DNA from: Candidatus Kerfeldbacteria bacterium CG15_BIG_FIL_POST_REV_8_21_14_020_45_12
GTDB lineage: Bacteria > Patescibacteriota > Patescibacteriia > UBA9570 > XYC2-FULL-38-9
Direction of reading: 5' to 3'
Assembly: GCA_002781785.1 (NCBI GenBank)
Contig: PFGC01000020.1
Span: forward strand, 1 to 42,083
DNA length: 42,083 nt
Below the pieces are notes generated by a model. That model made no database searches, had not been told where the DNA came from, and saw only the letters and a list, made by a program, of their open reading frames with translations. The translations under genes were made by a program, and so were the position numbers. This document shows positions 5,035 through 34,760 of the stretch, in pieces (position 1 is the first letter of the stretch; each line of letters starts with the position of its first letter).

Positions 5035-5036
5035 CT

Positions 5037-5759
5037 ATGACCAAGCTTCACACAGAATTGAACAATACTGACACCTTGCGAGGAAAGGCAATGAATTCAC
5101 TGCGAGAGGTGGTTTTTGGGCTGGAAGACGGTATCGTATCAACACTCGGTTCCATCACCGGAATTGCCGCTGCGACACACAACTCTTTTTTCATCATTTT
5201 GGCCGGATTTGTCATTATTTTCGTAGAATCTTTGTCGATGGCTGCTGGAACCTTTCTGGCCTCAAAAACAGATAGAGAGATGAATCAACGCATTATTGCT
5301 GAAGAGAGGGCAGAAATAGATAGTGACCCTGAAGGACAAAGGCAAAAACTCTCCGACCATTATCGCGCTAGAGGATTTAATGATGAAGAAATCAGCATTT
5401 TAGTTAACCGAATAACTCAAAACAAGGATCTGTGGTTGGAAGAAATGGCTCACAAGGACCTTGGTGTCAGCGTTGATCCGTCTCATACTCCTGGCTTGGA
5501 CGGAGTTTTTATGGGAGTTTCCTACGTGATTGGTGGTTTTGTATCTTTAATACCCTACTTCTTTTTGGAGGCTGCCACAGCAATCCCTCTTTCCATTGGC
5601 GCCTGCGTAATCGCTTTATTTGCCGTAGGTTGGGTTAAGGGCTACCTAGTTAGAGTCAATGCTGTTAAGAGTGGTCTGGAGATGCTGTTAATTTCACTAT
5701 CGGCTGTAGCCGTGGGTTATGGTGTAGGACAAGTCATTAGCTACTACTTCGGGGTATGA
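5037..5759 (+). CDS. VIT1/CCC1-family metal transporter
   Basis: 'LREVVFGLEDGIVSTLGSITGIAAAT', 'ESLSMAAGTFLASKT' and an internal Glu-rich helical segment. ATG at 5037 preferred over the ORF-track start at 5007, which overlaps the upstream gene. Confidence 0.88.
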   Translation: MTKLHTELNNTDTLRGKAMNSLREVVFGLEDGIVSTLGSITGIAAATHNSFFIILAGFVIIFVESLSMAAGTFLASKTDREMNQRIIAEERAEIDSDPEGQRQKLSDHYRARGFNDEEISILVNRITQNKDLWLEEMAHKDLGVSVDPSHTPGLDGVFMGVSYVIGGFVSLIPYFFLEAATAIPLSIGACVIALFAVGWVKGYLVRVNAVKSGLEMLLISLSAVAVGYGVGQVISYYFGV

Positions 5760-6433
5760 ACATGGCAGCGCGCCTGCTTCCACTGCTGATATTTATCGTT
5801 GCTATACCCATCGTCATTATTTTGTTTGCAAATGATTCTCCAGAAGTAAGAATAGGACTGACTCACTATATTCTAATCGCTCTTTTTTTATTTCCAGTAA
5901 TCGTCGCTTACATCATTATTCTAGTAGTGGCTTTTCACCCTACTGCTTACAACTTTCAGCCCCATCCTGAAGACGAAGAAAAAAAAATTGACCCCATTCA
6001 TCATGCCGCTATTGGATTGATGATCGCACTGCTGCAAGATTTGTCTAATGGTCATGTCGAAGATTCTCGTTTTTATAGACCAGAATTGCAACAAATGCTG
6101 GCATACGAACAACAGCAATACCGAATCTATTTCGATCGCGGCTATCATTTTGTGTTTCAGTTTCACAACGATGATCACTATGAAACACACTTGTTCTCAA
6201 AGTTAAGTGATGATGAAGTTATTATTGAACTCGAGGGTTTGTTCGACTACTATTTTGAGCGCAATGGTGAGCGCCACCGTACTCCTCACGGCTATGACAC
6301 TACTGAGCCACTATTGCGGTGTCCTGCCAGGGTTCGTTGTCGTTTACAGCGACTGAACCAAACTGCTCCCTGGCAACTGGCTGGATTTAGTGAAAATATT
6401 CGTGGAGGACAGCTAGGATTAGCCACTCAATAA
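5756..6433 (+). CDS. Hypothetical protein with two N-terminal TM helices and a soluble C-terminal domain
   Basis: ORF translationally coupled (ATGA) to the VIT1-like gene; N-terminus has two hydrophobic segments. Confidence 0.6.
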   Translation: MNMAARLLPLLIFIVAIPIVIILFANDSPEVRIGLTHYILIALFLFPVIVAYIIILVVAFHPTAYNFQPHPEDEEKKIDPIHHAAIGLMIALLQDLSNGHVEDSRFYRPELQQMLAYEQQQYRIYFDRGYHFVFQFHNDDHYETHLFSKLSDDEVIIELEGLFDYYFERNGERHRTPHGYDTTEPLLRCPARVRCRLQRLNQTAPWQLAGFSENIRGGQLGLATQ

Positions 6434-6436
6434 TCT

Positions 6437-7279
6437 ATGAAGGTCCATGGGGCAGAATCAGGTTTTCGTCGCATCCGGGCAGTTGACTTGGCTCCTGTCG
6501 AGATTAATCATGAGAAAAACTATTTAAGCACTGAGGCTCTTGAAGAAAAGTTAGGTCAGATTAAAGCAAATTTAAAAACCTGGGGTCGCTGGGCTTGGGG
6601 CTTGAGTGAGACAACAGATCTTGCGGTTGTATCTCTTGAAGGGCTGACTCAAGTGCAACTCTTCGAGGGCCGAGACAGTGGCTTGGTAGAGGGGACGATC
6701 GAAGGCCTAAGAGCTACTTTAGATAATATTCATGGTGACGGCACTATTAATAACTACCGGATTGAATCAGCTGAGATTTGTAGAATCGCGGCCGGCCTTC
6801 TGTTGCTGGACCCAAGCCTAGTCGACCGCCTGCCAATTTTAAAGATTCTAGGAAAGCGCACATTTATTAGTGACCTTATTGAGAGCGTGCCTTCCTGGGC
6901 GGTTACAGATTCTGCCAATGAACTTTTAGCTGAGCAGATCCTCGAGCCTAAGCGCCGTCAACACCACAAAAACATGCGATATGATAGTATTTGCTTAAAA
7001 TTATCGGAGCAGCCTAATGTCTCTCCTGTCGATCGCCTCTATCTCTTGTCGACCTGGCAGGTGGTAAATGGAGGTGGGGTAGATCAGTTTTTGACAGCCA
7101 ATGACCGTAGCCTACTAAACTCGATGCGCTCTTCGACTGCTGCCAATCCATTTGAAAGCGCCCGCCTGGCCAGACTGCTTTTGGCGGATAGTATAAATAT
7201 AAATCAGCCTGGCTTACTAGAAATTACCCATAAGGCAGCCGGTTCAATTCAAACACTGCCAAGCCGTCCGATAGTCTAG
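6437..7279 (+). CDS. Hypothetical protein, 'RAV'-motif family (see findings)
   Basis: N-terminus 'FRRIRAVDLAPVEIN' resembles 'VQRMRAVNLEPEEKN' of the 15728 ORF. Helical protein with 'LLLLDPSLVDRL'-type segments. Confidence 0.6.
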   Translation: MKVHGAESGFRRIRAVDLAPVEINHEKNYLSTEALEEKLGQIKANLKTWGRWAWGLSETTDLAVVSLEGLTQVQLFEGRDSGLVEGTIEGLRATLDNIHGDGTINNYRIESAEICRIAAGLLLLDPSLVDRLPILKILGKRTFISDLIESVPSWAVTDSANELLAEQILEPKRRQHHKNMRYDSICLKLSEQPNVSPVDRLYLLSTWQVVNGGGVDQFLTANDRSLLNSMRSSTAANPFESARLARLLLADSININQPGLLEITHKAAGSIQTLPSRPIV

Positions 7280-7286
7280 TTTTTCT

Positions 7287-7314
7287 TTGCACTTGGCCAA
7301 AAAACTGTTATAAT
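7287..7314 (+). promoter_or_regulatory. Sigma70-type promoter for glyS
   Basis: TTGCAC (7287-7292), 16 nt spacer, TATAAT (7309-7314). Confidence 0.75.
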
Positions 7315-7343
7315 ATGCCCTAGTTAAGGGTAAGTTTATTGTG

Positions 7344-7358
7344 TATTTTTGCGTATGA
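7344..7358 (+). promoter_or_regulatory. 5'-UTR/start-codon element TATTTTTGCGTATGA (copy 1)
   Basis: 15 nt identical to 27708-27722; includes the ATG. Confidence 0.5.
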
Positions 7359-8731
7359 AAGCTATTTCTATTGAAGACATTATCTCCCTAGCCAAGCGCC
7401 GGGGGTTCGTATTTCCATCCTCAGAGATTTATGGGGGTTTTGCTGCAGTTTACGATTACGGGCCTTATGGCGTAGAGCTAGCTAATAATATTAAAGCTGC
7501 TTGGTGGAAGGCCATGGTCCAGCAACGTGAGGATATCGTCGGACTCGATTCAAGTATCACCATGAGCCCACGAATCTGGGAGGCCAGTGGTCACGTTGGG
7601 GGGTTCGCTGATCCGCTGACAGAGTGTCGACAGTGTCACACTAGGCATCGTGTTGACCATTTGCTCGAAGATATTAAAGTTCAAGCTGACGAGAAAATGA
7701 GTGAGCCCGAAATTAACTCGCTGTTTGACGAGCACAAATCTAAACTAAAGTGTCCTAGCTGCGGCAAGAGCGATTTTAGCGCAGTAAAAAAGTTTAATCT
7801 GCTAGTAAAAACCAATCTAGGTAATTTTACTGGAGACATGGATGATCCAGTTTACCTTAGAGGAGAAACTTGCCAGGGTATTTATGTTAACTTTAAAAAT
7901 GTCCTAGACTCAAGCCGAGTGCGAGTTCCCTTCGGCATAGCTCAAATTGGCAAGGCCTTTAGAAATGAAATAACCGCCCGACAGTTTATATTTCGAACAC
8001 GAGAATTCGAGCAAATGGAAATGCAATTCTTTTGCTCCCCGGACGATGAAATGAATCAATATGAAAAATTGCGTGAGGCTCGGTGGCAGTTTTACCTAGA
8101 CCTCGGCATTCAGCCTGAAAATCTACGTTGGCATAAACACGAGAATCTAGTCTTCTACGCGAAGGAGGCGTACGACATTGAATATAACTATCCTTTTGGC
8201 TGGAAGGAATTGGAGGGAGTGCACGCGCGAGGTGATTATGATTTGACGCAACACGCTAAACACTCTGGTCAGGCCTTAACCTACACCGATCCCCATACTA
8301 ATGAACAGTACGTGCCACATATTGTTGAATCATCAGTTGGCGTTGGCCGCACCATGTTGATGGTCCTGGCTGATTCATACAAGGTTGAACAAACCGAGGC
8401 AGGGGAGAGGACTGTTCTGAAGCTGCCAAAGAAACTAGCGCCTATACAAGTGGCAGTTTTTCCACTACTTCGCAATAAACCAGAGCTCGTAGCCAAAGCT
8501 AGAGAACTGTTCAATCAGTTAAAAGTTCAGTTTATGTGCGAGTTTGATGATAACGGAAACATTGGTAAGCGCTACCGTCGCCAGGACGAAATTGGCACGC
8601 CATATTGTGTTACGGTTGATTTTGAAACCCTTGAAGACAATGCCGTAACTCTGCGTGACCGTGACACTATGGTGCAATCCCGCGTTCCTCTGTCTGAACT
8701 AATAGCCCTCTTAGCTGAAAAATATTCATAA
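7355..8731 (+). CDS. glyS: Glycyl-tRNA synthetase, class II dimeric type
   Basis: 'AKRRGFVFPSSEIYGGFAAVYDYGPYGVELANNIK', 'AFRNEITARQFIFRTREFEQMEMQFF', C-terminal anticodon-binding domain. Start corrected from TTG 7349 to ATG 7355. Confidence 0.95.
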   Translation: MKAISIEDIISLAKRRGFVFPSSEIYGGFAAVYDYGPYGVELANNIKAAWWKAMVQQREDIVGLDSSITMSPRIWEASGHVGGFADPLTECRQCHTRHRVDHLLEDIKVQADEKMSEPEINSLFDEHKSKLKCPSCGKSDFSAVKKFNLLVKTNLGNFTGDMDDPVYLRGETCQGIYVNFKNVLDSSRVRVPFGIAQIGKAFRNEITARQFIFRTREFEQMEMQFFCSPDDEMNQYEKLREARWQFYLDLGIQPENLRWHKHENLVFYAKEAYDIEYNYPFGWKELEGVHARGDYDLTQHAKHSGQALTYTDPHTNEQYVPHIVESSVGVGRTMLMVLADSYKVEQTEAGERTVLKLPKKLAPIQVAVFPLLRNKPELVAKARELFNQLKVQFMCEFDDNGNIGKRYRRQDEIGTPYCVTVDFETLEDNAVTLRDRDTMVQSRVPLSELIALLAEKYS

Positions 8732-10034: not shown

Positions 10035-11159
10035 ATGGCGAGACTAAAGCAAGAAATAAGTATGGCTGACCATAGCCTAAAGGGAAAGCTGCCTGAGGAG
10101 CGTACAATTTCTGTTAGTGTTCGCACGATTTTAAAGATAATTGGAGTTTTAGCGGCCATCTTTTTTCTGTTTTTTATCCGTGACGTGATTGGGTTAGTTT
10201 TTGTGGCCATTGTATTTGCCTCAGCCTTGGATCCTTGGGTGGACAAGATGGAGCGCTTTAGAATTCCACGTGGCATGTCTATATTACTGATGCTGGTGAT
10301 TATGTTGGCTGTGGCGGTTGGGGTTATTTATTTGTTGATTCCACCGCTAGCCAGTCAGGTTGGCGATATCATTGGATCGCTTGCCAAGCAAGCCCCACAA
10401 ATTGATAGTTTTTATCAATCACTTACGGGCCGAGAGGATGCCTCAGTACTAAAACAGATGCAGTCATTTCTGATCTCGATAAATTCTTCTATTGGCAGCA
10501 TATCCTCAGGGTTCTTTAGTGCCATTTCAGGATTCGTTGGTGCCATCGCAACCTTAATCATCGTGATGGTCATTACTTTCTACATGACGATTGAGGAGGA
10601 TGGGTTAAAAAAATTCGTGCGCTCGATCGCCCCAATTGAGTACCAGCCGTACCTAGTTCAAAAAACCAATCGTATTCAGGTGAAGATGGGTGGATGGTTG
10701 CGCGGACAGTTGATTCTAATGTTTATTATTGGCTCACTTACTTACGTGGGTTTACTTATTCTAGATGTCCCATATGCCCTGGTGCTAGCTATCTTTGCAG
10801 GTCTAGCTGAGTTTGTTCCCTTCTTAGGGCCACTGATTGCAGCTGTGCCTGCAGTCTTTTTCTCTTTTTCTGACTCGCCTTGGAAGGCCTTTGGGGTAGT
10901 TATCTTTTATATTGTATTACAGCAGCTTGAGAATCAAGTGATAGTTCCAAAAGTCATGCAAAAGGCGGTGGGCTTAAATCCGATAGTGGTAATTATTGTT
11001 ATGTTAATTGGCGCCAAAGTAGCTGGACTTGTCGGAATACTTTTAGCCGTCCCCGCTACCACAATCGCCTGGATATTTTTTGCAGATATTTTTGAGAGAA
11101 AAATTGAGGATGACAACAGGCTAGAATTTCCAACTGGAGATGTTAAAGATCCGTCATGA
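10035..11159 (+). CDS. AI-2E family transporter (PerM-like permease)
   Basis: Multi-TM; 'FAGLAEFVPFLGPLIAAVPAV', 'QLENQVIVPKVMQKAVGLNPIVVII'. Start could also be ATG 10062. Confidence 0.9.
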   Translation: MARLKQEISMADHSLKGKLPEERTISVSVRTILKIIGVLAAIFFLFFIRDVIGLVFVAIVFASALDPWVDKMERFRIPRGMSILLMLVIMLAVAVGVIYLLIPPLASQVGDIIGSLAKQAPQIDSFYQSLTGREDASVLKQMQSFLISINSSIGSISSGFFSAISGFVGAIATLIIVMVITFYMTIEEDGLKKFVRSIAPIEYQPYLVQKTNRIQVKMGGWLRGQLILMFIIGSLTYVGLLILDVPYALVLAIFAGLAEFVPFLGPLIAAVPAVFFSFSDSPWKAFGVVIFYIVLQQLENQVIVPKVMQKAVGLNPIVVIIVMLIGAKVAGLVGILLAVPATTIAWIFFADIFERKIEDDNRLEFPTGDVKDPS

Positions 11160-12610
11160 AAAATCAATTTTACGTCACAACATCGATTCCTTACGTAAAT
11201 GGCAACCCGCACATGGGTCACGCCCTAGAGTTTTTATACGCCGATGTCATAGCTCGCTATTACCGTCTGAAAGGGTATGACGTCCGTTTAACCACCGGTA
11301 CAGATGAGCACGGTCAAAAAGTACAGCGAGCCGCTGAAGCAGCGGGCGTTGAACCAGCAGCTCAGGCCGGCGTAGAGGCTGAACATTTTAAACGCTTGCT
11401 GGAGGCCTATAACTGTCAATATGATGACTTTGTTAGGACCACTGAGCCACGTCATGAGAAATCTGCTCATGTTTTTTGGCAGAAAATGGTTGATTCAGGT
11501 GATATTGAAAAGGGAGTTTATGAGGGGTTGTACTGCGTCGGCTGTGAAGCTAATAAGACAGAGAAAGATTTAATTGATGGTAAATGTCCAATACACGAAA
11601 AAACCCCTGAGCCAATCTCAGAAGAAAACTATTTTTTCCGGCTTTCTCGTTATGCTGATAAACTTCTGGCTTTTTATAATGAAAATCCTGACTTCATTTA
11701 CCCAGCTTTCAGGATGAAGGAAATGCGCGAGATTATCGCTAGCGGTTTAGAAGATGTTTCTATTTCACGCGACAAAAGTAGATTGTCGTGGGGCGTGTCA
11801 GTTCCAAATGATGACAATCAAGTTATGTACGTATGGTTTGAAGCTGTTATGAACTACGTTACTAGCGTTGGCCACGGGGTAGATGATGCTGAGTTCACTA
11901 AATGGTGGCCAGCGGATTTGCATATCATCGGTAAAGATATTAACCGATTCCATACCATTATGTGGCCAGCTATGTTGATGGCAGCAGGCCTAGACTTACC
12001 ACAAAAAGTTGGTGTTCATGGATTTATTACAGTCGATGGCAAAAAAATGAGTAAAAGTTTGGGGAATGTGATAGATCCATTTGCCCTTGTGGCTCAGTAT
12101 GGTGTAGAACCCATTCGCTATTTTCTACTTCGAGAAATGCCCTTTCAAGATGACGGGGATTTTTCCTACGAAAGATTAGAGGCTCGTTATCAGGCAGACC
12201 TTGCTAACGGTATCGGAAATCTTCTTTCTCGAGTAAGCAACATGATTGAGAAATACTCTCAGGGTGATCTTGATCCAAGTCCCCAAGAGTTGGATTATGG
12301 CAAAGCAGCGGCCATGCAGTACCATGACCTAATCCAGAAGCTAGAGTTTTCCAAAGCCCTTGATGTTATTTGGGGATTAATAGACGAGGCTAATGAACTA
12401 ATTGAGCAGGAAAAGCCCTGGGACTTAGCCAAAACCGACACTGATAGATTGCAGGTTATACTAGCGCAGTTGCTTTACTCACTTGAGCTTGTGACAGAGT
12501 GGCTAGAGCCGTTTATGCCAGAGACTGTACATACGATGCGCTCGGTTTTACAACGCCGTCCGATGGTAAAGGCAGAGCCATTATTTCCCCGTCTTGAGAT
12601 TACTAAGTAG
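11156..12610 (+). CDS. metG: Methionyl-tRNA synthetase
   Basis: 'YVNGNPHMGHALEF' (HIGH-like), 'DGKKMSKSLGNVIDP' (KMSKS), zinc-knuckle 'CVGCEANKTEKDLIDGKCPIH'. Confidence 0.97.
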   Translation: MKNQFYVTTSIPYVNGNPHMGHALEFLYADVIARYYRLKGYDVRLTTGTDEHGQKVQRAAEAAGVEPAAQAGVEAEHFKRLLEAYNCQYDDFVRTTEPRHEKSAHVFWQKMVDSGDIEKGVYEGLYCVGCEANKTEKDLIDGKCPIHEKTPEPISEENYFFRLSRYADKLLAFYNENPDFIYPAFRMKEMREIIASGLEDVSISRDKSRLSWGVSVPNDDNQVMYVWFEAVMNYVTSVGHGVDDAEFTKWWPADLHIIGKDINRFHTIMWPAMLMAAGLDLPQKVGVHGFITVDGKKMSKSLGNVIDPFALVAQYGVEPIRYFLLREMPFQDDGDFSYERLEARYQADLANGIGNLLSRVSNMIEKYSQGDLDPSPQELDYGKAAAMQYHDLIQKLEFSKALDVIWGLIDEANELIEQEKPWDLAKTDTDRLQVILAQLLYSLELVTEWLEPFMPETVHTMRSVLQRRPMVKAEPLFPRLEITK

Positions 12611-12616
12611 AGCTCT

Positions 12617-13168
12617 ATGATTCTCAACATCATCATCATAGTTTGGCTGGGCATATCCTTATTTAGTGGACTAAAACTCGGCTTTGTCTATAAAGCTGGA
12701 ACTACTATTGGTTTTATTTTTGGAGTTTGGCTGTCCAGTAGGTGGACGCCAGGCGTTGCTAGTTGGCTTGGTGGGTCACCTCTGACCGTCGCTTTAGTTT
12801 TTCTATTTTTTCTCTCCATTATGTCAAAGCTATTTGGAGGGGTTGCTTGGCTATTAGATAAGGTATTTAAGATACTAGCTCTGTTGCCTGGATTGAAGAG
12901 TTTTAATCGGGTGCTAGGTGGATTACTTAGCGTGCTATTGTCCTGCTTCATTATTAGCGCCGGTCTATTTATTGCCGTGTCATTCTCAGAAGCTGACTAT
13001 GAGAACAATTCTTCAACTATCTCAGCGAGTGCAGAAGGCCCAGCTTTGGCTAATGCCATTAATGAGTCGAGTATGGCTCGCTCGCTTTTAACTTTGAAGA
13101 TTTTTTACCAACCCTTGCTCTCAGACGTGCTGGCTACTTACCTGACTGATGAAAAAACGTCAGAATGA
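12617..13168 (+). CDS. CvpA-family membrane protein
   Basis: Four hydrophobic segments, short-loop arrangement 'LGISLFSGLKLGFVYKAG'. Confidence 0.65.
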   Translation: MILNIIIIVWLGISLFSGLKLGFVYKAGTTIGFIFGVWLSSRWTPGVASWLGGSPLTVALVFLFFLSIMSKLFGGVAWLLDKVFKILALLPGLKSFNRVLGGLLSVLLSCFIISAGLFIAVSFSEADYENNSSTISASAEGPALANAINESSMARSLLTLKIFYQPLLSDVLATYLTDEKTSE

Positions 13169-14049
13169 AATTTGTTGATACCCACGCCCACGTTAATTTT
13201 CGAGCATTTTCTGAGGACGCTGACCAGGTTATCCAGACTGCCCTCGTTAGTGGTGTTAACATGATAAATGTTGGTACAAACTTTGCCACCAGTCAGCGAT
13301 CAGTTGAAATTGCCGAACGGACCCCAGGTATGTGGGCTGCTATTGGATTACACCCAATTCATTTAGCAAAAGACATAACCGAGACTGCTAAGTTTTCAGG
13401 AGAAGAATACTCGTTTACAACAAAGTCAGAATTATTTGATAAGAGAAAGTTTTTTGAATTAGCCCAAAGTCCATCCGTCGTGGCCGTTGGTGAATCTGGA
13501 TTGGACTACTTTCACTTAGAGGACTTCAAGCACCCCGACATGACTGCTGAACAATTTGTCGAGAGACAAAAAGAGACGCTTTATGAAATTCTAGGTTTTG
13601 CGCGGGAAATAGAACGACCTCATATATTTCATTGTCGTGACGCCTACGACGAGTTTGCAGATATTGTTAGGCAATTTGGTGATAATAGCGATGGGGGAAG
13701 TGTTGGAGCTGGGGTTCGTGGCGTCGTTCACTGCTTTACGGGAAGTTGGGAGCAAGCTGAAAAGTTACTTGAGCTTGGATTATATATTGGCTTTACCGGC
13801 ATAGTCACTTTTCCAAATGCTCAGTCTCTTCAGGATATCGCTCGGCGCGTACCACTTGACCGCCTGTTAATAGAAACCGATTCGCCGTATTTAGCGCCAC
13901 AAGCTGTCCGAGGACAACGCAATGAGCCTAGTCATGTTATCCACGTAGCTGAGAAAATTGCTGAGCTAAAAGGCCTGTCTCTTGAGGAGGTAGCTCTAGC
14001 TACCACCCAAAACGCCATTTCACTGTTTCAGCTTCCGCTTACTATCTGA
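13165..14049 (+). CDS. TatD-family metal-dependent hydrolase
   Basis: 'FVDTHAHVNF', 'AIGLHPIH', 'VGESGLDYF', 'HCFTGSWEQAEKLL', 'LLIETDSPYLAP'. Confidence 0.93.
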   Translation: MKFVDTHAHVNFRAFSEDADQVIQTALVSGVNMINVGTNFATSQRSVEIAERTPGMWAAIGLHPIHLAKDITETAKFSGEEYSFTTKSELFDKRKFFELAQSPSVVAVGESGLDYFHLEDFKHPDMTAEQFVERQKETLYEILGFAREIERPHIFHCRDAYDEFADIVRQFGDNSDGGSVGAGVRGVVHCFTGSWEQAEKLLELGLYIGFTGIVTFPNAQSLQDIARRVPLDRLLIETDSPYLAPQAVRGQRNEPSHVIHVAEKIAELKGLSLEEVALATTQNAISLFQLPLTI

Positions 14050-17195: not shown

Positions 17196-17615
17196 TTAAC
17201 TACGCCACTTCTTTCCTACCGCCAATTTGGCGCGCTCTTTTTGCAAGAGTCTTTGCAGGTTGTTGTAGGTAGTGATATCCATCTCTTCTTGTGTTTCAAG
17301 TTCTTTAGCAAGTTCGGCGGCTTTTTTCTCAGACGCTTCCACATCAATGTCGTGAGCGTGATCTGCAGCATCAGCCAGAATAACCAAGGTGTTGTTTGAT
17401 ATTTCCAAAGTACCGAATGATACTGCCAGTGGAAACTCCTTGTCACCGTCCTTGATTAATAGTTCACCAGCCATCAGGATAGAAACCAACTGTGAGTGAT
17501 TTGGCAATACAGTGATTTCTCCATCCTGAGTATTAACCACTACCTGGTCAACAGGCTGATCAAACAACGTCTTAACTGGGGTCAGTAGCTTCAGTTGTAG
17601 CCTATCGGTAGACAT
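17196..17615 (-). CDS. atpC: F1Fo ATP synthase epsilon subunit
   Basis: 'LKLLTPVKTLFDQPVDQVVVNTQDGEITVLPNHSQLVSIL'; last gene of the atp operon. Confidence 0.92.
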   Translation of the reverse strand: MSTDRLQLKLLTPVKTLFDQPVDQVVVNTQDGEITVLPNHSQLVSILMAGELLIKDGDKEFPLAVSFGTLEISNNTLVILADAADHAHDIDVEASEKKAAELAKELETQEEMDITTYNNLQRLLQKERAKLAVGKKWRS

Positions 17616-17620
17616 TATGG

Positions 17621-19943
<2,323 letters not shown>

Positions 19944-19963: not shown

Positions 19964-21496
19964 TTAGCTCTGTTTCTCAATGAAGTAGCTCTGATCTGCC
20001 GTTGATGCAAACTCAGCTACAACGCTCTTCAGTTTTTCTTCCCAAGTCTCATCATACATTAACTCCTCTCGAATCTCGGTAAACAGGTCGCCGGCATTAT
20101 TTTCAATATACTCCATCAAGCCAGCTATGAAAGGCTGGACTTTTTCAACTTTAACATCACTCAGCATTTCGTTTGTAGCCACATAAATTTGAATGACTTG
20201 GCGTTCAACTGGAACTGGACTGTACTGACTTTGTTTTAAGAGTTCCTCTAAGCGTCTACCCAAATCAAGCTGTCTCTTAGTAGCTGCATCAAGGTCAGAG
20301 CCAAATTGAGCAAAGGCTTCCAGTTCGCGGAATTGAGCCAGTCCCAAACGCAGGGTTCCAGCTACCTTCTTCATCGCCTTAATCTGAGCTGCTCCACCTA
20401 CACGTGAAACGGATAGTCCCACATTAATAGCCGGTCTAAAACCTTTGTTAAAAAGGTCTGATTCTAGATAAATTTGACCATCGGTAATAGAAATAACATT
20501 AGTTGGAACGTAGGCAGACACGTCACCACCTTGAGTCTCGATAATAGGTAGAGCAGTCATAGATCCAGCTCCCAACTTGTCATTCAACTTAGCCGATCGC
20601 TCAAGTAACCTTGAATGTAGGTAGAAAACGTCACCTGGGAAAGCCTCGCGGCCCGGTGGGCGGCGTAGGATCAGTGAAATGTGTCTATAAGCTACAGCGT
20701 GCTTAGAAAGATCATCATAAATGATCAAGGCGTGCTTACCTTTATCCATGAAGTATTCTCCCATTGAACAGCCTGCATAGGGCGCTAGGTAGTTCATAGC
20801 TGCTGCTTCAGAGGCTGTGGCTGAAACCACAATCGTGTATGCCATAGCGCCAGCCTTCTCAAGCCTAGAAACTATCTGAGCTACTTTATTTTCTTTTTGT
20901 CCTATAGCGACATAAATACAAACGATATCCTCTCCTTTTTGATTGAGGATAGTATCAATTGCTACCGCAGTTTTTCCAGTCTGACGGTCACCAATAATCA
21001 ACTCACGTTGACCACGACCAATTGGCACCATGGTGTCGATAGACTTAAGTCCTGTCTGCAGTGGCTCATGAACTGATTTACGGCTCATCACTCCAGGGGC
21101 AATTCGCTCCATTGGGTATCTTTCTGAGGAATCCAGAGCACCCTTACCGTCCTTAGGATTTCCTAGTGGATCCAAAACTCGACCGATTAGTCCATCACCA
21201 ACTGGCACAGACATGAGCTCGCCAAGGGCCTTGATGGTCATGCCCTCACCGATATCGGTGTATTCACCAAGTACCATAATTCCACACATACCTTCCTCCA
21301 AGTTCAACACGACTCCGCGCACGCCATTATCAAATTCAACCATCTCGGCAGCTCCAACATCAGCCAGGCCAACTGCCTTGACAATACCATCTGAAATCTC
21401 AACTACGCGGCCAATTTTTTCTTCAGTAATATCGGCTTTGTACTCTGAGATTGTTTTCTTGAGGTGTTCAACGACCGTATCTTTTTGTCCCGTCAT
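19964..21496 (-). CDS. atpA: F1Fo ATP synthase alpha subunit
   Basis: '[28 protein letters not shown]', '[28 protein letters not shown]'. Confidence 0.97.
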
Positions 21497-21500
21497 AACT

Positions 21501-21896
21501 TTAGTTCGAGTGAATTAGTTGAGCGAGTTTTCGCAGCTGTCCTCGCAGAGATAGATCCCACCGTTTATTAGCAGTTTCTATCTGTATGCCACCGATAATC
21601 GATGGGTCATTTTCTCTATCAATTTTTACCTTTACCTCTGGAAGAACCTGCTTCACGTGCTTGGCGATTATTTCATCAGGAATGTCATGAGCACTTCTGA
21701 CAGTTACTTGGGTAACTCCTTGACTGGCCAGCTCAGTTTCCTCAACTAGCCTTACAATATCAGGTAGCAGTCTCATCTTTCCGTCCTGTCTAATCAGCTT
21801 CAACATTTTTTCAGAGACACCAGGCCACTCAGCTGGTGGTACAGCGGATAGCTTTTCGTACCAGGCTTGAGCATATTGTGAGGCAGAGGCTTTCAT
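21501..21896 (-). CDS. atpH: F1Fo ATP synthase delta subunit
   Basis: Position between atpF and atpA; '[32 protein letters not shown]'. Start at 21896 fits '[16 protein letters not shown]'. Confidence 0.85.
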
Positions 21897-21897
21897 A

Positions 21898-22392
21898 CTA
21901 TTTAACCTCTGCGACAATTCTCTCAATGTACTTGGTGTCGGCAGTCACATCAAGCTTGTCCATTAAGACTTTCTCGGTAGCAGCCAGCACTAACTCAACG
22001 GCCTGTTCTTGAGCCTCGCGCAACATTCTCTCACGCTCGTCATGGATCTGTTGCTTTGCCCTTTGGGCAATACCAACCAGGTCAGTCTTATTTTTTTCTA
22101 ACAAAGCAGCAGCCTGCACCTGGGCTTGCTCCTTAGCACGTTGAATTATCTCCTGGGCCTGCTTGTGGCCATCAGCAACCATCTTTTCATACTCTGATTT
22201 TGCTTCAACCAGCGCTTGCTGCGCAGTTTCAGCGTCTTTTACTCCTTTTTCAATCTTCTCAGTTCGATCTTTCACAAACTTCAAGATTGGCTTGTATCCC
22301 AACTTGAATAATACTGCGTACAACACGGCAAAATTTACCAAGTTGAACAGCAGATTTTTCAGGTCGATTCCAAATGCGTTAAATAGTTCCAT
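21898..22392 (-). CDS. atpF: F1Fo ATP synthase b subunit
   Basis: N-terminal TM helix followed by a long charged helix; position in operon. Confidence 0.92.
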   Translation of the reverse strand: MELFNAFGIDLKNLLFNLVNFAVLYAVLFKLGYKPILKFVKDRTEKIEKGVKDAETAQQALVEAKSEYEKMVADGHKQAQEIIQRAKEQAQVQAAALLEKNKTDLVGIAQRAKQQIHDERERMLREAQEQAVELVLAATEKVLMDKLDVTADTKYIERIVAEVK

Positions 22393-22455: not shown

Positions 22456-22686
22456 CTAGAAAGCGAACAGAATCAAGAATGTAATAACCAGAGCGTAGAT
22501 CGAAGTTGACTCCGTAATAGCCATACCAATGATCATGCGCGTGAACAACTCGTCCTTAATGCTTGGGTTTCGACCCATAGCTTCAAGTGCCTTACCGGCA
22601 ACAATTCCTTCACCGATTCCGGGTCCAATTGCTCCAATACCGATGGCGAGTCCAGCGGCCAGAAGTTTCGCAGCTTCAACGTCCAT
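22456..22686 (-). CDS. atpE: F1Fo ATP synthase c subunit
   Basis: 76 aa helical hairpin 'AIGPGIGEGIVAGKALEAMGRNP...GMAITESTSIYALVITFLILFAF'. Confidence 0.97.
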   Translation of the reverse strand: MDVEAAKLLAAGLAIGIGAIGPGIGEGIVAGKALEAMGRNPSIKDELFTRMIIGMAITESTSIYALVITFLILFAF

Positions 22687-22783: not shown

Positions 22784-23548
22784 CTAACTCGCCGTCTCGG
22801 TCGTTTTTTCTTTAGTAATAATAGCCATTTGAAAAAATATCACTATCAGGATCGGGAAGACAAAGGCCTGAATAACAGAACTTAGTAAGCCTAGCATCCA
22901 AAAGGGAATTGGTATAAAGAGCGGTGCAATTGATAGCATTACTGCGGAAATAACTTCTCCGGCAAATATATTTCCGAATAAACGAAAGGACAGGGACACA
23001 ATTTTGGCTATTTCACCAATGATATCCAATAAGCCAAGGGCGAAGTTTAGACACCTTTCCATGATATTACCACCAGAAAAATTGAAAAACTTGCCGGCGT
23101 AGCCAAAGAAACCACCGCTCACTATTGCAATCAATTGCCAGATAATGAAATTAGCGAAAGTTAGGACAAAAATCAGGGAATAATTGGTAGCAGGAGACCT
23201 GTATAAAGGTGCGTCGGAAACCGTAATAACTCCAAGACCTGGTATAAAACTAAACAAATTTGCGCACAGGAAAAACAGCGCCAAAGTAGCAAACATCGGA
23301 AACGCCCTGGCGGTTAATTTTTCATCTTTAAAGATGCCGTGTACAAAATCCCAAGCTCCCACTACGAAAGTTTCAATAAATAGCTGTAACCGACCTGGAA
23401 CTTCCTTTAATCTGCGGGCCGTAAACACAAAAACTACCATCAAGATTATCGCAATTAGCGATGTCCATAACATGGAGTTAGTAACACTGAAGCCTGCTAC
23501 ATCGAACAAGGTTTCAGGTTTTAGACTAATTTCAATTTGTGCTGCCAT
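22784..23548 (-). CDS. atpB: F1Fo ATP synthase a subunit
   Basis: 'VSLSFRLFGNIFAGEVI' with the essential Arg; C-terminal 'QAFVFPILIVIFFQMAI'. Confidence 0.96.
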   Translation of the reverse strand: MAAQIEISLKPETLFDVAGFSVTNSMLWTSLIAIILMVVFVFTARRLKEVPGRLQLFIETFVVGAWDFVHGIFKDEKLTARAFPMFATLALFFLCANLFSFIPGLGVITVSDAPLYRSPATNYSLIFVLTFANFIIWQLIAIVSGGFFGYAGKFFNFSGGNIMERCLNFALGLLDIIGEIAKIVSLSFRLFGNIFAGEVISAVMLSIAPLFIPIPFWMLGLLSSVIQAFVFPILIVIFFQMAIITKEKTTETAS

Positions 23549-23551
23549 TTT

Positions 23552-23824
23552 TTAAAGGTTGCGAGCGTGTTTTTCCGTATTGCGGAAAATGAGCACGTTT
23601 GAAACCACTAGAGCCAAGAGAAAACTCACAACCACAATGACTCTACTGTCAAACATTTTGCCTAACAACCAACCGATGCCGCCGAATAGCACCATCGGAC
23701 CAAAGATATAGCCCGTAGTGATTCCGACCAGAGCCAAGGCCCGTCCATAGACGTTTTTCCCTGTGTTTCCGGCCGATTGCTGCTGTTCCGCTGCCTCGGT
23801 TGTTGTATGGTCTTCTGTACTCAT
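23552..23824 (-). CDS. AtpI/AtpZ-like small membrane protein
   Basis: Two TM helices with 'FGGIGWLLGKMFD', first gene of the atp operon. Confidence 0.75.
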   Translation of the reverse strand: MSTEDHTTTEAAEQQQSAGNTGKNVYGRALALVGITTGYIFGPMVLFGGIGWLLGKMFDSRVIVVVSFLLALVVSNVLIFRNTEKHARNL

Positions 23825-28237: not shown

Positions 28238-31200
28238 ATGGCTGAGCCAATGCGACAAACTGAGACTCATGATCAAGTTCCTGAGTCAGTAGAATTGGTC
28301 GAAGACAAGGCTTTGACGCCGGAAATCGTCGAGTCAGTTCCTGGTCAATTGGAGGAGCGGGCTAGTGTACGAGTTTTAGAGTTTAAGCAGCGTGGTGCCG
28401 GATCAGCTGAAGTAGCCAACCCCTCAGAGCAAAGTGATCTAGCGAGTCTAGAAGGGGCTGTCCATGCGGTTGAGCAGCAGTTATATAAAAAGCTGGAAGC
28501 TGCCAGGGTTCGTCTACAAAGCGCCAGAGAGGCCAGCGCTAAGGTTAAATTTTGGGATCGCTCAGCCATGCGCGAAGCCAAGGCTGACGTTGAGGAGGCC
28601 ACAGAGGACTATCAATCGCTGATGACAGAACACCAAGACTCGCGGGCTGCCCAGTTAATACAGCGTCGTGAGCAGAGGGTTCAGGCTGAGCGCGATAATA
28701 GGCAGCGCAAGAGTTTATTTAGTCGAGTTGGACAACGCCTTACCAAGGACGCTGGCAGAGTACTGAGTGAGGATGCTCAAGCCCAAGAGAGGCTCACTAA
28801 TGTTACAGAGCAGTACGATGAAGCCGCTGCTGAGGTTGTTGCAGATCACATTAGTTTGGCGCTTCAAGAGATGGGAGCTTTAGCAGATCAACGCGCTATT
28901 GCCGAGCATGCAGAAACTAACGCCATTTATCAAGCCTATAAAAGCTTGAGCGAAATGAATCTTCAGGCAGTTTTAAAGTCGCTAGGAACTGACTGGGAGC
29001 CGTCTAGTTGGAGAGGTCGTTTAGCAGCCAAGGGGCTTAACGCTAGACTGCTAGTCAATTTATCACTTGTAGGAGGTGGATTAGTGGCAGGTGCTACTGG
29101 GTTTGGAGCTGCTGCTGGTGGCTTGCTAGTAACCAAGCGTTTATTATCTGGCCTAGCCTCTGGCTCTGGAACTTTTGACTTGGCGGGAATGCTACGCCAA
29201 AGAAAGTTGAATAAAGAGGTGGCTAAACGTTTAGATAAGGAGAGTCCTGCCAATCTTTCTACAGAAGATTTAAATAACTATATTGCCCAACTAGAATCAG
29301 CCGCTATTGTGAATGGTCGCAGGCCTACGATGGACAGGATGTACCAACGCTTGCAATCAGAGCGCGGTCGTCGTTGGAGTGCAGATCATCAATCAGAAGG
29401 CTTGGCCCCTCCAGAGAAAGCGGCCGACGCCATGCAGCAAGAGCTTGCCAGTATGATGCAAGATGCCGATAAACGCTTTCTTGATTTTGAAAGAGGTGAT
29501 CGTGATGCACAGGCTAGGTTTAAGGTGTATGGAGCTGCAGTTGGTGTTCTTATAGGCAGCGGTGAGCATGTTAGATTATTAAAGGGGTTAGTTGGAACAG
29601 CTTACGCCGCTGAGCCCGGGGCCGACGCTTTTATTGCTGCGCTTGAGGCTGGCAGCTTGCCTGATGGATTTACTATTGACGGAGCTCAGGCCGCCTTGAA
29701 ACATCTTGTGGAAATTAGTTCTACAACTTCACTCGGAGATATGAAAATGTTGTTAGTTGACGGTGGGACTATTGTCCAAAATGGAGACACCTTAGGTTTT
29801 CAAATGGCAACAGGGGAGTTGATTTCACTTGATTCACCGGAGGCGTTTGCTCGCGTGCCACAGCTTTCTGAGTTACTTAGCGCTGCAGACTCATTAGAAA
29901 CACCTGCTGAATTAGCAGAAGTTCCATTATCTACTGATGTTCAGCCACCTGCGGTAGATGTTGTGCATTCTGTACCCGCCGGCGATGTTCGTGTAGGAGA
30001 TATCACCGAACTTACTGCTGACAAAATTTCCGGGGCAGACACTGTTCATTTTACGGTCGATGGCACTGGAGTAACCTTAGATTACAAAGATGGTGTTTAC
30101 GAATTTGTTAGAGACAACGCTAATGCCAGAGGCATTAGGCCAGGTGTGGTAGTTGATGGTTTCGATAGGTTAGCTAAGGCTCACGCGGGGAGAGCGGATT
30201 CATCTTTTGTTTTTGGAACTAGCGTTCGTCTATCAAGGTATAGCGACATGTTGAAGGTTATTGAACAGATGCGCGAGGCAGGTCTTGCCGATACGCCTCA
30301 GTTCGCCAGCTTACAGACTCAAATCGCCGCTGAGTCCGCTAGCATTACACACGATTATGGGAATGTGCTAGTGAGTCCAATTATTGCGCCTGAGGCGCCT
30401 GCGGCTTCAGCTATTCCTGACAAGCTTCCGGGCACTTCAACAGCCACTGCAAGCACTGACTTGAGAGGTAGCGACCTTGCTCACGATAGCCTTGATTCCA
30501 CCCCAGTTCCGACATCACATTTTGACACGGCCACTGGAGGCTTCACCATGACACAAGGTGCTGAGGGATACACCTTCACCTTTCCTGACCCTAGCACTCA
30601 CTTCAGCCCAGGTCTGGCCCGAGACGACTTTATCGATATTGCTAAGGCTCATGCCGAAAAAGGTAGCTCGGGTTTTGTTATAGGGACGCAAATGAGTTTT
30701 GGAAGGCTTGAGCAATTACTACAGGCTAACCAAGCTCTGGAATCAGCCGGGCTAGCCAATCAACCTCAGCAAGTTGCTTTAGCCGCTGAAATTCAAAGCC
30801 ACATTAATTCTATGGCTCGTGAATACGGTAATGTTTTTAATTCTGACTTAATGGGCCATCCTGGCATGCCGGACACAGTGCGTACTCCAAACTTTGCTGC
30901 CTTAGCCTACGAGAAGCTTCCTGATCTCACTGGCGCTAGAGCTGTGGAGCGTGCAGCTGACTGGCAGGAGTCAGGTAAAACGCCCAGTGGTTTATTTGAT
31001 GATGAGTGGGACAGGGCCACTAAACGGGCCATCAGCCCAGTAACTCCAGGCAAGGTAGTTGATGGCTTTGCTCGTGGAGTACGCGGTACAGACGACAGTT
31101 TAAATAGAACTCTAGATGTCGGTGCTTACAAAGCTCAAGATTGGGTTGACGATAACATTGCTCCAAATACTGACCCCACAGCTCAACTACCAGTAGATCA

Positions 31201-31831
31201 AGAAACTCTTCCCGGTTGGCGTCCAGAGGACGCTCCATCTGCTCGAAAAGCGGCTAAGGCAGCTATGCAAGCAGATAGACAAACAGCACACCAGGAGGTG
31301 GTTGAGAGTGCTCGAGAGATAGCTGAGCTTGAGGATCAGGTCTTCAAAATTCCAGAACATATTAATCCAGAAACTGTAGCCCAATTCGAGGCAACGGGCA
31401 CCCTTCACAGTGGTGATACTACTGCCGTTTTTGAGCACATTCGGGGGAAACGTTTTTCAGTGACCTTAACGGAGATGCCGGATCAGGAGTCAGCTGTGAC
31501 TAGTTATTTGGGCGACGATTACCGCGAAGTTATTCGGAGAAATCTGCACCTACATACAATTCATGATGCCAGGCCTATGATAGTTGAGGTAGAAGGTCAT
31601 ACACGAAAATTAGCTGGCCTGCTTGAGATCAAAAAAACAATGATCGAAAATGGACTAACTAAAACCCCTCAGTTCAGAGTATTAGATAAAGCCATCGATC
31701 AGACACAACGTGATGTTACCCAATACGGACGAGTAATGTGGGACGACCCTGGCTACGGTAAGATGTCCGCCCAGCAAATTCGATCTCTGTTTATTTCTAC
31801 GGGAACTGGCAGTCCGCCGTCTCGCCGTTAA
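28238..31831 (+). CDS. Large (1197 aa) hypothetical protein: coiled-coil N-terminus, Gly/Ala-rich hydrophobic segments, three diverged C-terminal repeats
   Basis: Single long ORF, no recognised enzymatic motif; see repeat features. Confidence 0.85.
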   Translation: MAEPMRQTETHDQVPESVELVEDKALTPEIVESVPGQLEERASVRVLEFKQRGAGSAEVANPSEQSDLASLEGAVHAVEQQLYKKLEAARVRLQSAREASAKVKFWDRSAMREAKADVEEATEDYQSLMTEHQDSRAAQLIQRREQRVQAERDNRQRKSLFSRVGQRLTKDAGRVLSEDAQAQERLTNVTEQYDEAAAEVVADHISLALQEMGALADQRAIAEHAETNAIYQAYKSLSEMNLQAVLKSLGTDWEPSSWRGRLAAKGLNARLLVNLSLVGGGLVAGATGFGAAAGGLLVTKRLLSGLASGSGTFDLAGMLRQRKLNKEVAKRLDKESPANLSTEDLNNYIAQLESAAIVNGRRPTMDRMYQRLQSERGRRWSADHQSEGLAPPEKAADAMQQELASMMQDADKRFLDFERGDRDAQARFKVYGAAVGVLIGSGEHVRLLKGLVGTAYAAEPGADAFIAALEAGSLPDGFTIDGAQAALKHLVEISSTTSLGDMKMLLVDGGTIVQNGDTLGFQMATGELISLDSPEAFARVPQLSELLSAADSLETPAELAEVPLSTDVQPPAVDVVHSVPAGDVRVGDITELTADKISGADTVHFTVDGTGVTLDYKDGVYEFVRDNANARGIRPGVVVDGFDRLAKAHAGRADSSFVFGTSVRLSRYSDMLKVIEQMREAGLADTPQFASLQTQIAAESASITHDYGNVLVSPIIAPEAPAASAIPDKLPGTSTATASTDLRGSDLAHDSLDSTPVPTSHFDTATGGFTMTQGAEGYTFTFPDPSTHFSPGLARDDFIDIAKAHAEKGSSGFVIGTQMSFGRLEQLLQANQALESAGLANQPQQVALAAEIQSHINSMAREYGNVFNSDLMGHPGMPDTVRTPNFAALAYEKLPDLTGARAVERAADWQESGKTPSGLFDDEWDRATKRAISPVTPGKVVDGFARGVRGTDDSLNRTLDVGAYKAQDWVDDNIAPNTDPTAQLPVDQETLPGWRPEDAPSARKAAKAAMQADRQTAHQEVVESAREIAELEDQVFKIPEHINPETVAQFEATGTLHSGDTTAVFEHIRGKRFSVTLTEMPDQESAVTSYLGDDYREVIRRNLHLHTIHDARPMIVEVEGHTRKLAGLLEIKKTMIENGLTKTPQFRVLDKAIDQTQRDVTQYGRVMWDDPGYGKMSAQQIRSLFISTGTGSPPSRR
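30031..30377 (+). repeat. Protein-level repeat copy 1 in the 1197-aa protein
   Basis: 'HFTVDG...LAKAHAGRADSSFVFGTSVRLSRYSDMLKVIEQMREAGLADTPQFASLQTQIAAESASITHDYGNVLVS'. Confidence 0.8.
30529..30846 (+). repeat. Protein-level repeat copy 2
   Basis: 'GFTMTQ...IAKAHAEKGSSGFVIGTQMSFGRLEQLLQANQALESAGLANQPQQVALAAEIQSHINSMAREYGNVFNS'. Confidence 0.8.
31450..31752 (+). repeat. Protein-level repeat copy 3 (most diverged)
   Basis: 'RFSVTLTEM...HTIHDARPMIVEVEGHTRKLAGLLEIKKTMIENGLTKTPQFRVLDKAIDQTQRDVTQYGRVMWDDP'. Confidence 0.65.
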
Positions 31832-31847
31832 TTGACCTAACTCTCAG

Positions 31848-34760
31848 ATGCCGGCATCTTCGCAAAGCACCATTCTGGATGGTTTGAATCATGAACAAGA
31901 GACGGCCGTCGTCCACAAGACTGGGCCGCTACTTATAATTGCCGGAGCCGGCACCGGAAAGACTACTGTAGTGACACGTCGGATCGCTCAACTGATTACC
32001 TCCGGAGAAGCTCGGGCTGACCAAATCCTAGCCCTCACCTTTACTGATAAGGCTGCTGGAGAAATGGAAGAGCGGGTAGATGCACTACTGCCCATGGGTT
32101 ATCTTGATTTATGGGTATCTACGTTTCATGCTTTCGGTGAGCGTGTTTTAAAAGACCATGCGCTGGATATTGGTCTATCAAATGACTTTAGGCTCTTAAC
32201 GGATACCGATCAGTGGTTATTACTACGAAGTCATATCGACGAGTTTGAGCTTGATTACTACAAACCCAAAGGCAATCCAACTAAATTTGTGCAGGCGCTA
32301 ATATCACATTTTTCCAGACTTAAAGATGAGGACATCACCCCCGCGCGCTACCTAGCCTACGCTAAGAATTTAAACAGCAGAGTATCACCTCTGTTAGAAA
32401 AAAAGGCTCGCACCGATGAAGAGCAGGCCCAGGTTGATGAGGCGGCTAGAGTTACCGAAGTTGCCGCAGCTTATGAACGTTACCAGCAGCTACTGCGTGA
32501 GGAAAATGCCATGGATTTTGGGGATTTAATTGTAGAGACCATTCATTTGTTTAATGAGAGGCCAGCCTTGCTTGATAAATTTCGTAAGCAGTTTAAGTAC
32601 ATATTGGTCGACGAATTCCAGGACACCAATTTCGCTCAGTACGATTTGATAAAGCTGTTGGCAGCACCTGAGAATAATTTAACCGTTGTAGCCGACGATG
32701 ACCAGTCCATTTACAGATTTCGTGGAGCATCGATGAGTAATATTGTAATTTTCAAAAAAGATTTTCCTGAGGCCGAAGAAGTTTCTCTGGTGCAAAACTA
32801 TAGATCAGCTCAGGAAATTTTGGACTTGGCACACAGCTTTATTCAGAGTAACAATCCTCACCGACTCGAAGTTTCTTTAGATATTGATAAGCGCCTCAAA
32901 AGCAACACTAAGGAGTCGGCTGTTATTGAACATCTTCATAGCCAGTCACTCACGGGCGAGGCTCAGCTGGTTATGAAAAAGATTCTAGAGCTTAAAGAAG
33001 CTCGTCCTGAGACCTCCTGGAGCGATTTTGCGATCTTGGTAAGAGCTAACGATTCGGCCCAGGCCTTCATTCCATATCTAGAACGAGCCAATGTGCCATA
33101 TCAGTTCCTAGCATCAAAAGGGCTATTCACCAAGTCAGTCATTCTAGATATTATCGCTGTACTTAAGTTACTCGATGACTATCACGAATCCAGAGCTATG
33201 TACCGCTACCTCACGCTAGATTTGTGGGGAATAGCCCATGAGGACGTTTTGGCTATTATGCAACACGGTAGTAAGTACACTGAATCGATTTATGAAACCT
33301 GCCTTAATGTTCAAGAGGTACCAAGTGTTTCTGAGGCTGGACGTTTACAGGTAGAAAAACTACTGGGGCATTTAAAAACACTTACCAAGGAGGCTCGTTA
33401 TAAATCCGTTGGCGAAATTATTTTAATGTTCCTTGAGCAGTCAGGCTATCTTAAACTTATCACTAACCAAGAAGAGTCCTTAGCCACGGAGAATATTCTG
33501 TATCTCAATCAGTTTTACAAGTATGTTGAGGCTTTCGAAAAGGCTCACAGTGAAAAAACGGTTCGTAATTTTGTATTCGAGCTCGTGGCTATGATAGAAG
33601 CTGGCGAGCAGGGTAGACTCTTGCCAGACCTGGATGAGGGGCCGGAGTCAGTAAAAATTATGACAGTGCACGCCGCTAAAGGGCTTGAGTTTGAGTGTGT
33701 ATTTGTTGTAAACCTAGTTGATAAAAGGTTTCCAGCGATCGGGCGCAAGGAAGCTATTCCAGTTCCAGAAGATCTTGTTAAAGATGTGCCACAAGGGGAT
33801 GGTGAATGGCATTTAGAGGAGGAGAGGCGGCTATTTTATGTGGCCATAACTCGAGCTAAGTCCGGACTGTTTTTGACCAGTGGTGAAGATTACGGCGGTG
33901 TCCGTAAGAAAAAACCCTCTCGCTTTTTAGTAGAGGCTGGATTTGTAGACACCAGACCTGAGCCAACCGGAGAGGTTGTCTTTCAGCCTGTTAGTCATGT
34001 TTCACCTGAGCTGGCGAGCCGAGAGCGATCTTACCTGCCGGACACATTTAGCTTCACCGATCTTGATACTTACGATGTTTGTCCTTGGAAATATCGCTTT
34101 CGCTATGTTTTGAAGGTGCCATCCAAATCCGGTTACCAAGCCTCATTCGGAAAAGCTGTACATAATACTTTGTATGAGTTCTTTCGCCGCATGAAAGAAC
34201 ATCCCAGCAAGATCGCACCAACCTTGTCAGATCTCCTTGAAATATATGAAGCTAAGTGGATAGACGAATGGTTTAATAGCAAAAAACAACGCGATAACTA
34301 TAAAACCAAAGGGGCTCAAATGCTGGAAGAATTTTACGATTTACATAAAGCTGCTTGGCCATCCGTGTTGCATCTTGAGGAGCGTTTTCGAGTTCCTTTG
34401 GGTGAATATACGATCAAGGGGGCGATAGACCGGGTCGATACTGTTGAGGGTGGGGTAGAGGTGATTGATTATAAAACAGGCACGCCCCCTAAGACCGGTA
34501 AGAAGGATCAGAAGCAGCTTTACCTATACGCCTTAGCCCTCCAACAAATCTTTGAGGAAGCACCTACCAAGCTGACTTACTACTTTCTCGAAAATAATAT
34601 TGAATTATCCACGGATTTTGATGCCGAGAAAATGCAGTCAGTTCAGGAATGGGCCCTGCAGATTATTGAGAAAATTCAATCAGCTAACTTTGAGCCGACG
34701 CCTAGTCAGCAAGTCTGTAAACATTGCGACTACCGAGAAATCTGCGAATATAGAAAGTAA
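31848..34760 (+). CDS. UvrD/PcrA-family SF1 helicase fused to a C-terminal PD-(D/E)XK nuclease with a Fe-S-type Cys motif
   Basis: 'IAGAGTGKTTVVTRRIAQLI', 'ILVDEFQDTNFAQYDLI', 'VADDDQSIYRFRGAS', 'MTVHAAKGLEFECVFVV', then 'GAIDRVDTVEGGVEVIDYKTG' and 'YDVCPWKYRF...QVCKHCDYREICEYRK'. Confidence 0.93.
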   Translation: MPASSQSTILDGLNHEQETAVVHKTGPLLIIAGAGTGKTTVVTRRIAQLITSGEARADQILALTFTDKAAGEMEERVDALLPMGYLDLWVSTFHAFGERVLKDHALDIGLSNDFRLLTDTDQWLLLRSHIDEFELDYYKPKGNPTKFVQALISHFSRLKDEDITPARYLAYAKNLNSRVSPLLEKKARTDEEQAQVDEAARVTEVAAAYERYQQLLREENAMDFGDLIVETIHLFNERPALLDKFRKQFKYILVDEFQDTNFAQYDLIKLLAAPENNLTVVADDDQSIYRFRGASMSNIVIFKKDFPEAEEVSLVQNYRSAQEILDLAHSFIQSNNPHRLEVSLDIDKRLKSNTKESAVIEHLHSQSLTGEAQLVMKKILELKEARPETSWSDFAILVRANDSAQAFIPYLERANVPYQFLASKGLFTKSVILDIIAVLKLLDDYHESRAMYRYLTLDLWGIAHEDVLAIMQHGSKYTESIYETCLNVQEVPSVSEAGRLQVEKLLGHLKTLTKEARYKSVGEIILMFLEQSGYLKLITNQEESLATENILYLNQFYKYVEAFEKAHSEKTVRNFVFELVAMIEAGEQGRLLPDLDEGPESVKIMTVHAAKGLEFECVFVVNLVDKRFPAIGRKEAIPVPEDLVKDVPQGDGEWHLEEERRLFYVAITRAKSGLFLTSGEDYGGVRKKKPSRFLVEAGFVDTRPEPTGEVVFQPVSHVSPELASRERSYLPDTFSFTDLDTYDVCPWKYRFRYVLKVPSKSGYQASFGKAVHNTLYEFFRRMKEHPSKIAPTLSDLLEIYEAKWIDEWFNSKKQRDNYKTKGAQMLEEFYDLHKAAWPSVLHLEERFRVPLGEYTIKGAIDRVDTVEGGVEVIDYKTGTPPKTGKKDQKQLYLYALALQQIFEEAPTKLTYYFLENNIELSTDFDAEKMQSVQEWALQIIEKIQSANFEPTPSQQVCKHCDYREICEYRK

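Follow-up and report, generated by a model that had tools for sequence, protein, structure and literature searches.

The atp operon and its c-subunit

The window, by which we mean the whole stretch of 42,083 nucleotides from contig PFGC01000020.1 of Candidatus Kerfeldbacteria bacterium CG15_BIG_FIL_POST_REV_8_21_14_020_45_12, contains a compact atp operon that runs from right to left on the minus strand in the order atpI-B-E-F-H-A-G-D-C. Here we are concerned with atpE, the gene for the c-subunit of the rotor ring, and with the ion that this ring may carry. The encoded protein reads MDVEAAKLLAAGLAIGIGAIGPGIGEGIVAGKALEAMGRNPSIKDELFTRMIIGMAITESTSIYALVITFLILFAF. The first-pass annotation had located a c-subunit at 22456-22686 without naming a strand; the coordinates are exact and the gene lies on the minus strand, while the plus strand is broken by a stop in the same frame. 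The operon comprises the following features.

22456..22686, minus strand: atpE, c-subunit, 76 amino acids (PF00137, alignment, AlphaFold2 hairpin), with E26, I57 (backbone), E59, S60, T61 and Y64
22621..22623, minus strand: codon of P22
22609..22611, minus strand: codon GAA of E26, the helix-1 carboxylate, equivalent to Glu32 of Fusobacterium nucleatum (alignment)
22504..22512, minus strand: codons of E59-S60-T61, equivalent to Glu65-Ser66-Thr67 (alignment); E59 (GAG) at 22510-22512, S60 at 22507-22509, T61 at 22504-22506
22495..22497, minus strand: codon of Y64, equivalent to Tyr70 (alignment)
22784..23548, minus strand: atpB, stator subunit a, 254 amino acids, Na-type clade (Pfam, trees, alignment)
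23552..23824, minus strand: atpI-like gene for a small membrane protein ahead of atpB, without Pfam match (position and similarity in kin)
21898..22392, minus strand: atpF, subunit b (position and similarity to kin)
21501..21896, minus strand: atpH, delta; ATG start chosen, the open reading frame opens with TTG at 21926
19964..21496, minus strand: atpA, alpha
19041..19943, minus strand: atpG, gamma
17621..19018, minus strand: atpD, beta; ATG start chosen, the open reading frame opens with TTG at 19078
17196..17615, minus strand: atpC, epsilon (Pfam PF02823)

AtpE matches Pfam family PF00137 with 75.9 bits against a cut-off of 24 in a Pfam profile search, and the closest named c-subunits stem from Ca. 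Peregrinibacteria (72%) and Ca. Gracilibacteria (68%). A two-helix hairpin, a carboxylate on helix 2 and the setting in an atp operon identify it as an F-type c-subunit. It is the single PF00137 match in its own genome (1.22 Mb, 64 contigs, 93.7% complete) and the sole c/K-type subunit detected there; the PF00137 search revealed no second F-type or V-type rotor in this genome, nor an NtpK-type K subunit of the V/A type. Neither is the operon that of an N-type ATPase, in which atpD-atpC stand ahead of atpB and atpQ/atpR are present (PMC5376962): in the window atpD-atpC stand last, which is the F-type order.

Ion-binding site and probable sodium coupling

In phmmer alignments E26, I57, E59, S60, T61 and Y64 of AtpE fall on E32, V63, E65, S66, T67 and Y70 of the F. 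nucleatum c-subunit (3zk1). The stretch from E26 to E59 is ungapped against E32/E65 of 3zk1 as well as Q32/E65 of Ilyobacter tartaricus (1yce), and the sole gap lies upstream of P22. The spacing of 33 residues between the carboxylates, which the first-pass annotation had equated with that in Ilyobacter and Propionigenium, is thus borne out, and so is the likeness to F. nucleatum that it had pointed out; all ligands are matched, including T61, the Thr67 equivalent, which it had missed. AlphaFold2 predicts an AtpE hairpin with a pLDDT (predicted local distance difference test) of 97. This model compares with 3zk1 at a template-modelling score (TMq) of 0.88, a root-mean-square deviation of 1.1 and 46% identity, values that concern a single hairpin and the overall fold only.

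With the c11 ring of F. nucleatum (3zk1/3zk2) AtpE shares the helix-1 Glu at the Glu32 position, the second Glu 33 residues further on and the helix-2 E-S-T with the Tyr. It differs in one extra helix-1 residue before GPGIGE and in a shorter N-terminus (76 versus 89 amino acids), and its organism is without the searched family of Na+-pumping decarboxylases. The ring of I. tartaricus and Propionigenium (1yce) equals AtpE in all helix-2 ligands and in their spacing but carries Gln on helix 1 where AtpE has Glu. The N-type c17 ring of Burkholderia pseudomallei likewise places two Glu and a Tyr where AtpE has them, yet it is H+-specific, reads E-T-M instead of E-S-T and is encoded in N-type instead of F-type operon order (PMC5376962). 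Chloroplast and cyanobacterial H+ rings (3v3c, 2wie) resemble AtpE in fold, in P-x3-Q on helix 1 and in the Tyr, whereas their helix 2 reads E-A-L and offers no Ser/Thr ligand beside the Glu, where AtpE has S60. The first-pass annotation overstated the value of the signature: P-x3-Q/E on helix 1 combined with E...Y on helix 2 is in itself no mark of Na+, as solved chloroplast H+ rings with P-x3-Q and E-A..Y and the H+-specific N-type ring (PMC5376962) show.

We parsed the c-subunits of 137 loci from the Candidate Phyla Radiation (CPR; Patescibacteria), to which the window organism belongs. The set is biased to better query matches, so that it does not give a phylum-wide share of Na-type genomes. 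Two kinds are apparent. One (H-type) is hydrophobic at position 26, mostly reads E-A on helix 2 and has I/L/V at 61; the other (E/Q- or Na-type) combines E/Q26 with E-S or E-T and mostly T61. S/T60 is found in all 25 loci with E/Q26 and in 7 of the 112 without (Fisher p 2e-21, kinship ignored), T61 in 17 of 25 and 0 of 112, respectively; such co-occurrence goes beyond chance. A survey of relatives within the window's order, as suggested by the first-pass annotation, has a mixed outcome: E/Q26 together with S/T60 is kept in six of the eight members with a c match, the window counted; the exceptions are one M26-DSL and one plain H+ type. The former (L036/L239 in genome G385) has an unusual site in which M26 is accompanied by Asp instead of Glu (D59-S60). 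Six CPR c-subunits are half-sites, where a Ser/Thr follows the helix-2 Glu and the helix-1 residue is hydrophobic: I26 with FAESLAIF in L051, L082 and L130, V26 with LTETIAFY in L074, L084 and L088. In L317 (G540:C9:14000-28000; 3703-3930 and 5347-5601) an additional E-type c gene (IIESVAIY) is situated upstream of atpI-B besides the normal one (ICESTGIY), and a mixed-c rotor is possible in this organism.

Five families of primary Na+ or H+ pumps were searched for in the window organism's own genome (93.7% complete), namely membrane pyrophosphatase (PF03030), the beta subunit of Na+-decarboxylase (PF03977), complex-I/Mrp-type antiporter subunits (PF00361), Nqr/Rnf (PF03116) and haem-copper oxidase (PF00115). 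None was found, and pumps beyond these five families were not searched; from this absence we infer net ATP-driven Na+ export. Membrane pyrophosphatase, present in some Na-type kin, had been considered as a source of Na+ transport and was discarded for the window organism. The CPR genome G339, which has a Na-type rotor, contains two different PF03030 pyrophosphatases (G339:C5:42785-44758 and G339:C9:138065-140011).

We consider it probable that the AtpE ring binds Na+ in the two-carboxylate manner of F. nucleatum and that the enzyme works mainly as an ATP-driven Na+ pump; the ion, the protonation state and the direction are what we infer. What has been shown is the sequence, how it aligns and is predicted to fold, its inheritance together with a separate class of stator (see below) and the absence of the five pump families. 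AtpE makes up the ring of the one rotary ATPase that was detected in this genome. E26 would stay protonated and give a hydrogen bond to E59, Na+ would be coordinated by E26, E59, S60 and the I57 carbonyl, T61 would hold a water molecule and Y64 would brace E59. For F. nucleatum the corresponding ligand roles have been described, among them a water beside Thr67 and a Glu32 that retains its proton (PMC3692424). Where Na+ is in large excess over H+, only Na+ would cross the membrane. The enzyme would spend ATP on the export of Na+ instead of making ATP, and would so charge the membrane for Na+ symporters. The earlier suggestion of a Na+-coupled or dual ATP synthase is partly supported: the full ligand set and the stator class make Na+ likely, although it is unproven.

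Several points weigh against Na+. All characterized rings are intrinsically H+-selective; the F. nucleatum ring, too, prefers H+ and turns to Na+ only where this ion is in excess, and for Methanosarcina acetivorans the use of both ions is reported (PMC3692424). Na+ had been predicted for the two-carboxylate N-type ring of B. pseudomallei (E30, E61, T62, M63, Y66), which was measured to be H+-specific (PMC5376962). Within the window's order the site varies (Q-ESI, Q-ESL, E-ETP, M-DSL, I-EA), and in kin-aware contrasts on the F1 tree about four of five independent pairs agree and none disagrees, too few for significance. On these grounds the rotor might carry H+, either alone or as the dominant one of two ions, with the second carboxylate and S60/T61 retained from an ancestor and now tuning only the pKa of E59. 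We regard this as rather unlikely: the H+-specific N-type ring places M where F. nucleatum has Thr67, while AtpE holds the full E-S-T of F. nucleatum, and the H-type CPR rotors are hydrophobic at 26 and 61, mostly have A60 and go with another class of stator. That the motif is incidental, with a polar helix-1 residue devoid of any role in the ion site, appears highly improbable. The Gly-rich PGIGEG does have a counterpart, PGVGQG, in chloroplast H+ rings, but the match to two solved Na+ rings is exact by position, and rotor positions co-vary with one another and with the stator; by this co-variation the explanation is largely refuted.

Stator subunit a and the atpI-B-E segment

A distinct class of stator subunit a accompanies the E/Q-type rotors, that of the window included, and supports Na+ more strongly than does the survey of relatives within the order. 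In the alpha plus beta tree the E/Q-type enzymes are scattered in about five places among the H-type, whereas the tree of subunit a unites every CPR E/Q-type row, along with one mixed row, in one clade (support 99/97). In a denser set of closer relatives, a single branch of the subunit-a tree sets the 23 Na-type rows apart from the 20 H-type rows (100/99; found in 100% of bootstrap trees). On the F1 tree of the same set the Na/H type requires seven changes, at least four of them on starred branches, and F1 rejects a branch that has the Na-type to itself on one side (approximately unbiased (AU) test, p 4.5e-115). Subunit a of the window keeps R189, N193, E198 and Q227; its residue 220, at the position of E. 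coli His245, is G instead of the E of H-type CPR stators. E at a220 is found in 0 of 26 Na-type and 40 of 40 H-type rows; elsewhere one Na-type row (L352) has it. As a marker of Na+ this residue had to be rejected, to the detriment of Na+ coupling, since solved chloroplast H+ stators have G as well, like the window, and L352 is Na-type with E. The state of a220 marks the class of rotors with a polar helix 1, not Na+.

Some organisms feature gene arrangements that bear on how rotor and stator came to travel together.

11156..14049, plus strand of the window: MetRS - CvpA-like - TatD genes; the same neighbours precede the atp operon in G528, which is of the same class
L316 (G528:C11:10500-24500), 3318-7534 of the reverse complement: tandem Fo modules of G528, H-type then Na-type

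The operon L229 (genome G282) is a hybrid with a break between atpE and atpF. Up to this point it resembles L222 and L224 (AtpI 42-45%, a 65-67%, c 87-89%), and from b onward it is like Moranbacteria L146 (b 51%, delta 35%, alpha 76%, gamma 59%, beta 82%, epsilon 45%); G282 and the Moranbacteria-like f146 genomes share one order. The three operons have a related tatD-atpI-B-E segment, combined with a Moranbacteria-like F1 in L229 and a Falkowbacteria-like F1 in L222/L224, and the upstream tatD common to them is absent there in the Moranbacteria kin examined. F1 rejects a clade of L229, L222 and L224 (p 1e-8), and subunit a rejects a grouping of L229 with the Moranbacteria to which its F1 is akin (p 7e-65) as well as one of L222/L224 with Falkowbacteria L169 (p 3e-53); these groups were picked after the identities had been seen and the three p-values are optimistic. 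Since MetRS-CvpA-TatD genes lie near the window's atp operon and directly ahead of that of G528, a donor of the window/G528 class is plausible for the tatD-atpI-B-E segment. The window's operon is inverted relative to G528 with respect to these genes.

G528 (99% complete, contig of 131 kb) has MetRS, CvpA-like and TatD genes followed by two I-a-c-b modules and one delta-alpha-gamma-beta-epsilon set. The first module is H-type (c with I26 and E-A-I; a 65% identical to Falkowbacteria), the second Na-type (c with E26 and E-S-T; a 61% identical to L229). The two a genes are 38.9% identical and are placed in the H and Na clades, respectively. In the family of G528 (12 genomes) seven others are H-type, G567 has a Na-type c only, two are without match and G597 matches as weakly as the H-type ones. 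The tandem looks like a snapshot of an exchange, be it an intermediate caught in the act or an enzyme able to assemble with one or the other ion specificity; it stems from one metagenome-assembled genome (MAG), which could be misassembled.

Because subunit a splits cleanly into Na- and H-type and F1 does not, the atpI-B-E cassette seems to have been exchanged under the resident F1. We favour, with some reserve, a history in which two old and discrete atpI-B-E cassettes, Na-type and H-type and each with a rotor and a matching stator, have replaced each other again and again through recombination in front of atpF, above a resident F1 that follows organismal kinship; G528 would hold both cassettes and the window would be a Na-type member. 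Alternatively, the split of subunit a might reflect convergence imposed by the rotor: a and c touch, parallel change is to be expected and it can mislead tree methods. This is distinctly unlikely, given that a differs over its whole length, as between the two a genes of G528, that AtpI, which is not known to be in the ion path, tracks a and c, that the break in L229 falls before b, that tatD travels along and that one genome has both cassettes in tandem. For the window itself, exchange within its own order is not supported by the trees: the family grouping is rejected by subunit a (p 0.003), but F1 does not reject the window together with L238 (p 0.41).

Neighbouring genes and implications

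Three transporters in the window had been cited as fitting a Na+ economy. Their families are confirmed, a KefB-like protein (PF00999 plus TrkA_N), an SLC13-like protein (PF00939) and a CitMHS/ArsB permease, but they are compatible with either ion and were dropped as evidence. Elsewhere in the window, a protein of 1197 amino acids without Pfam match (28238-31831, plus strand) is encoded just before a UvrD/PDDEXK helicase-nuclease (31848-34760).

CPR bacteria are usually assumed to use a proton gradient, either their own or one borrowed from a host. Earlier work suggested Na+-coupled F-ATPases for two MAGs of soda-lake Falkowbacteria, likewise CPR members (PMC6146748), and the ProAD database assigns Na+-F-ATPases by motif, as was done here (PMC11738941); in the portions of these two sources available to us, neither the two-carboxylate site nor a matching stator class nor cassette exchange is mentioned. 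The two-carboxylate kind of Na+ rotor is already known, and the new part is the exchange of rotor/stator cassettes. We found no description of atpI-B-E exchange or of a tandem-Fo operon in the open literature, though this does not prove that none exists.

A complete Na+ rotor site that is co-inherited with its own class of stator implies that one group of CPR bacteria is probably sodium-driven. If the exchange of atpI-B-E is real, the long-standing question of whether ATPases switch between Na+ and H+ through point mutations or by having parts replaced would become testable, and these bacteria would offer natural test pairs with close F1 and differing Fo, as well as one operon that has both.
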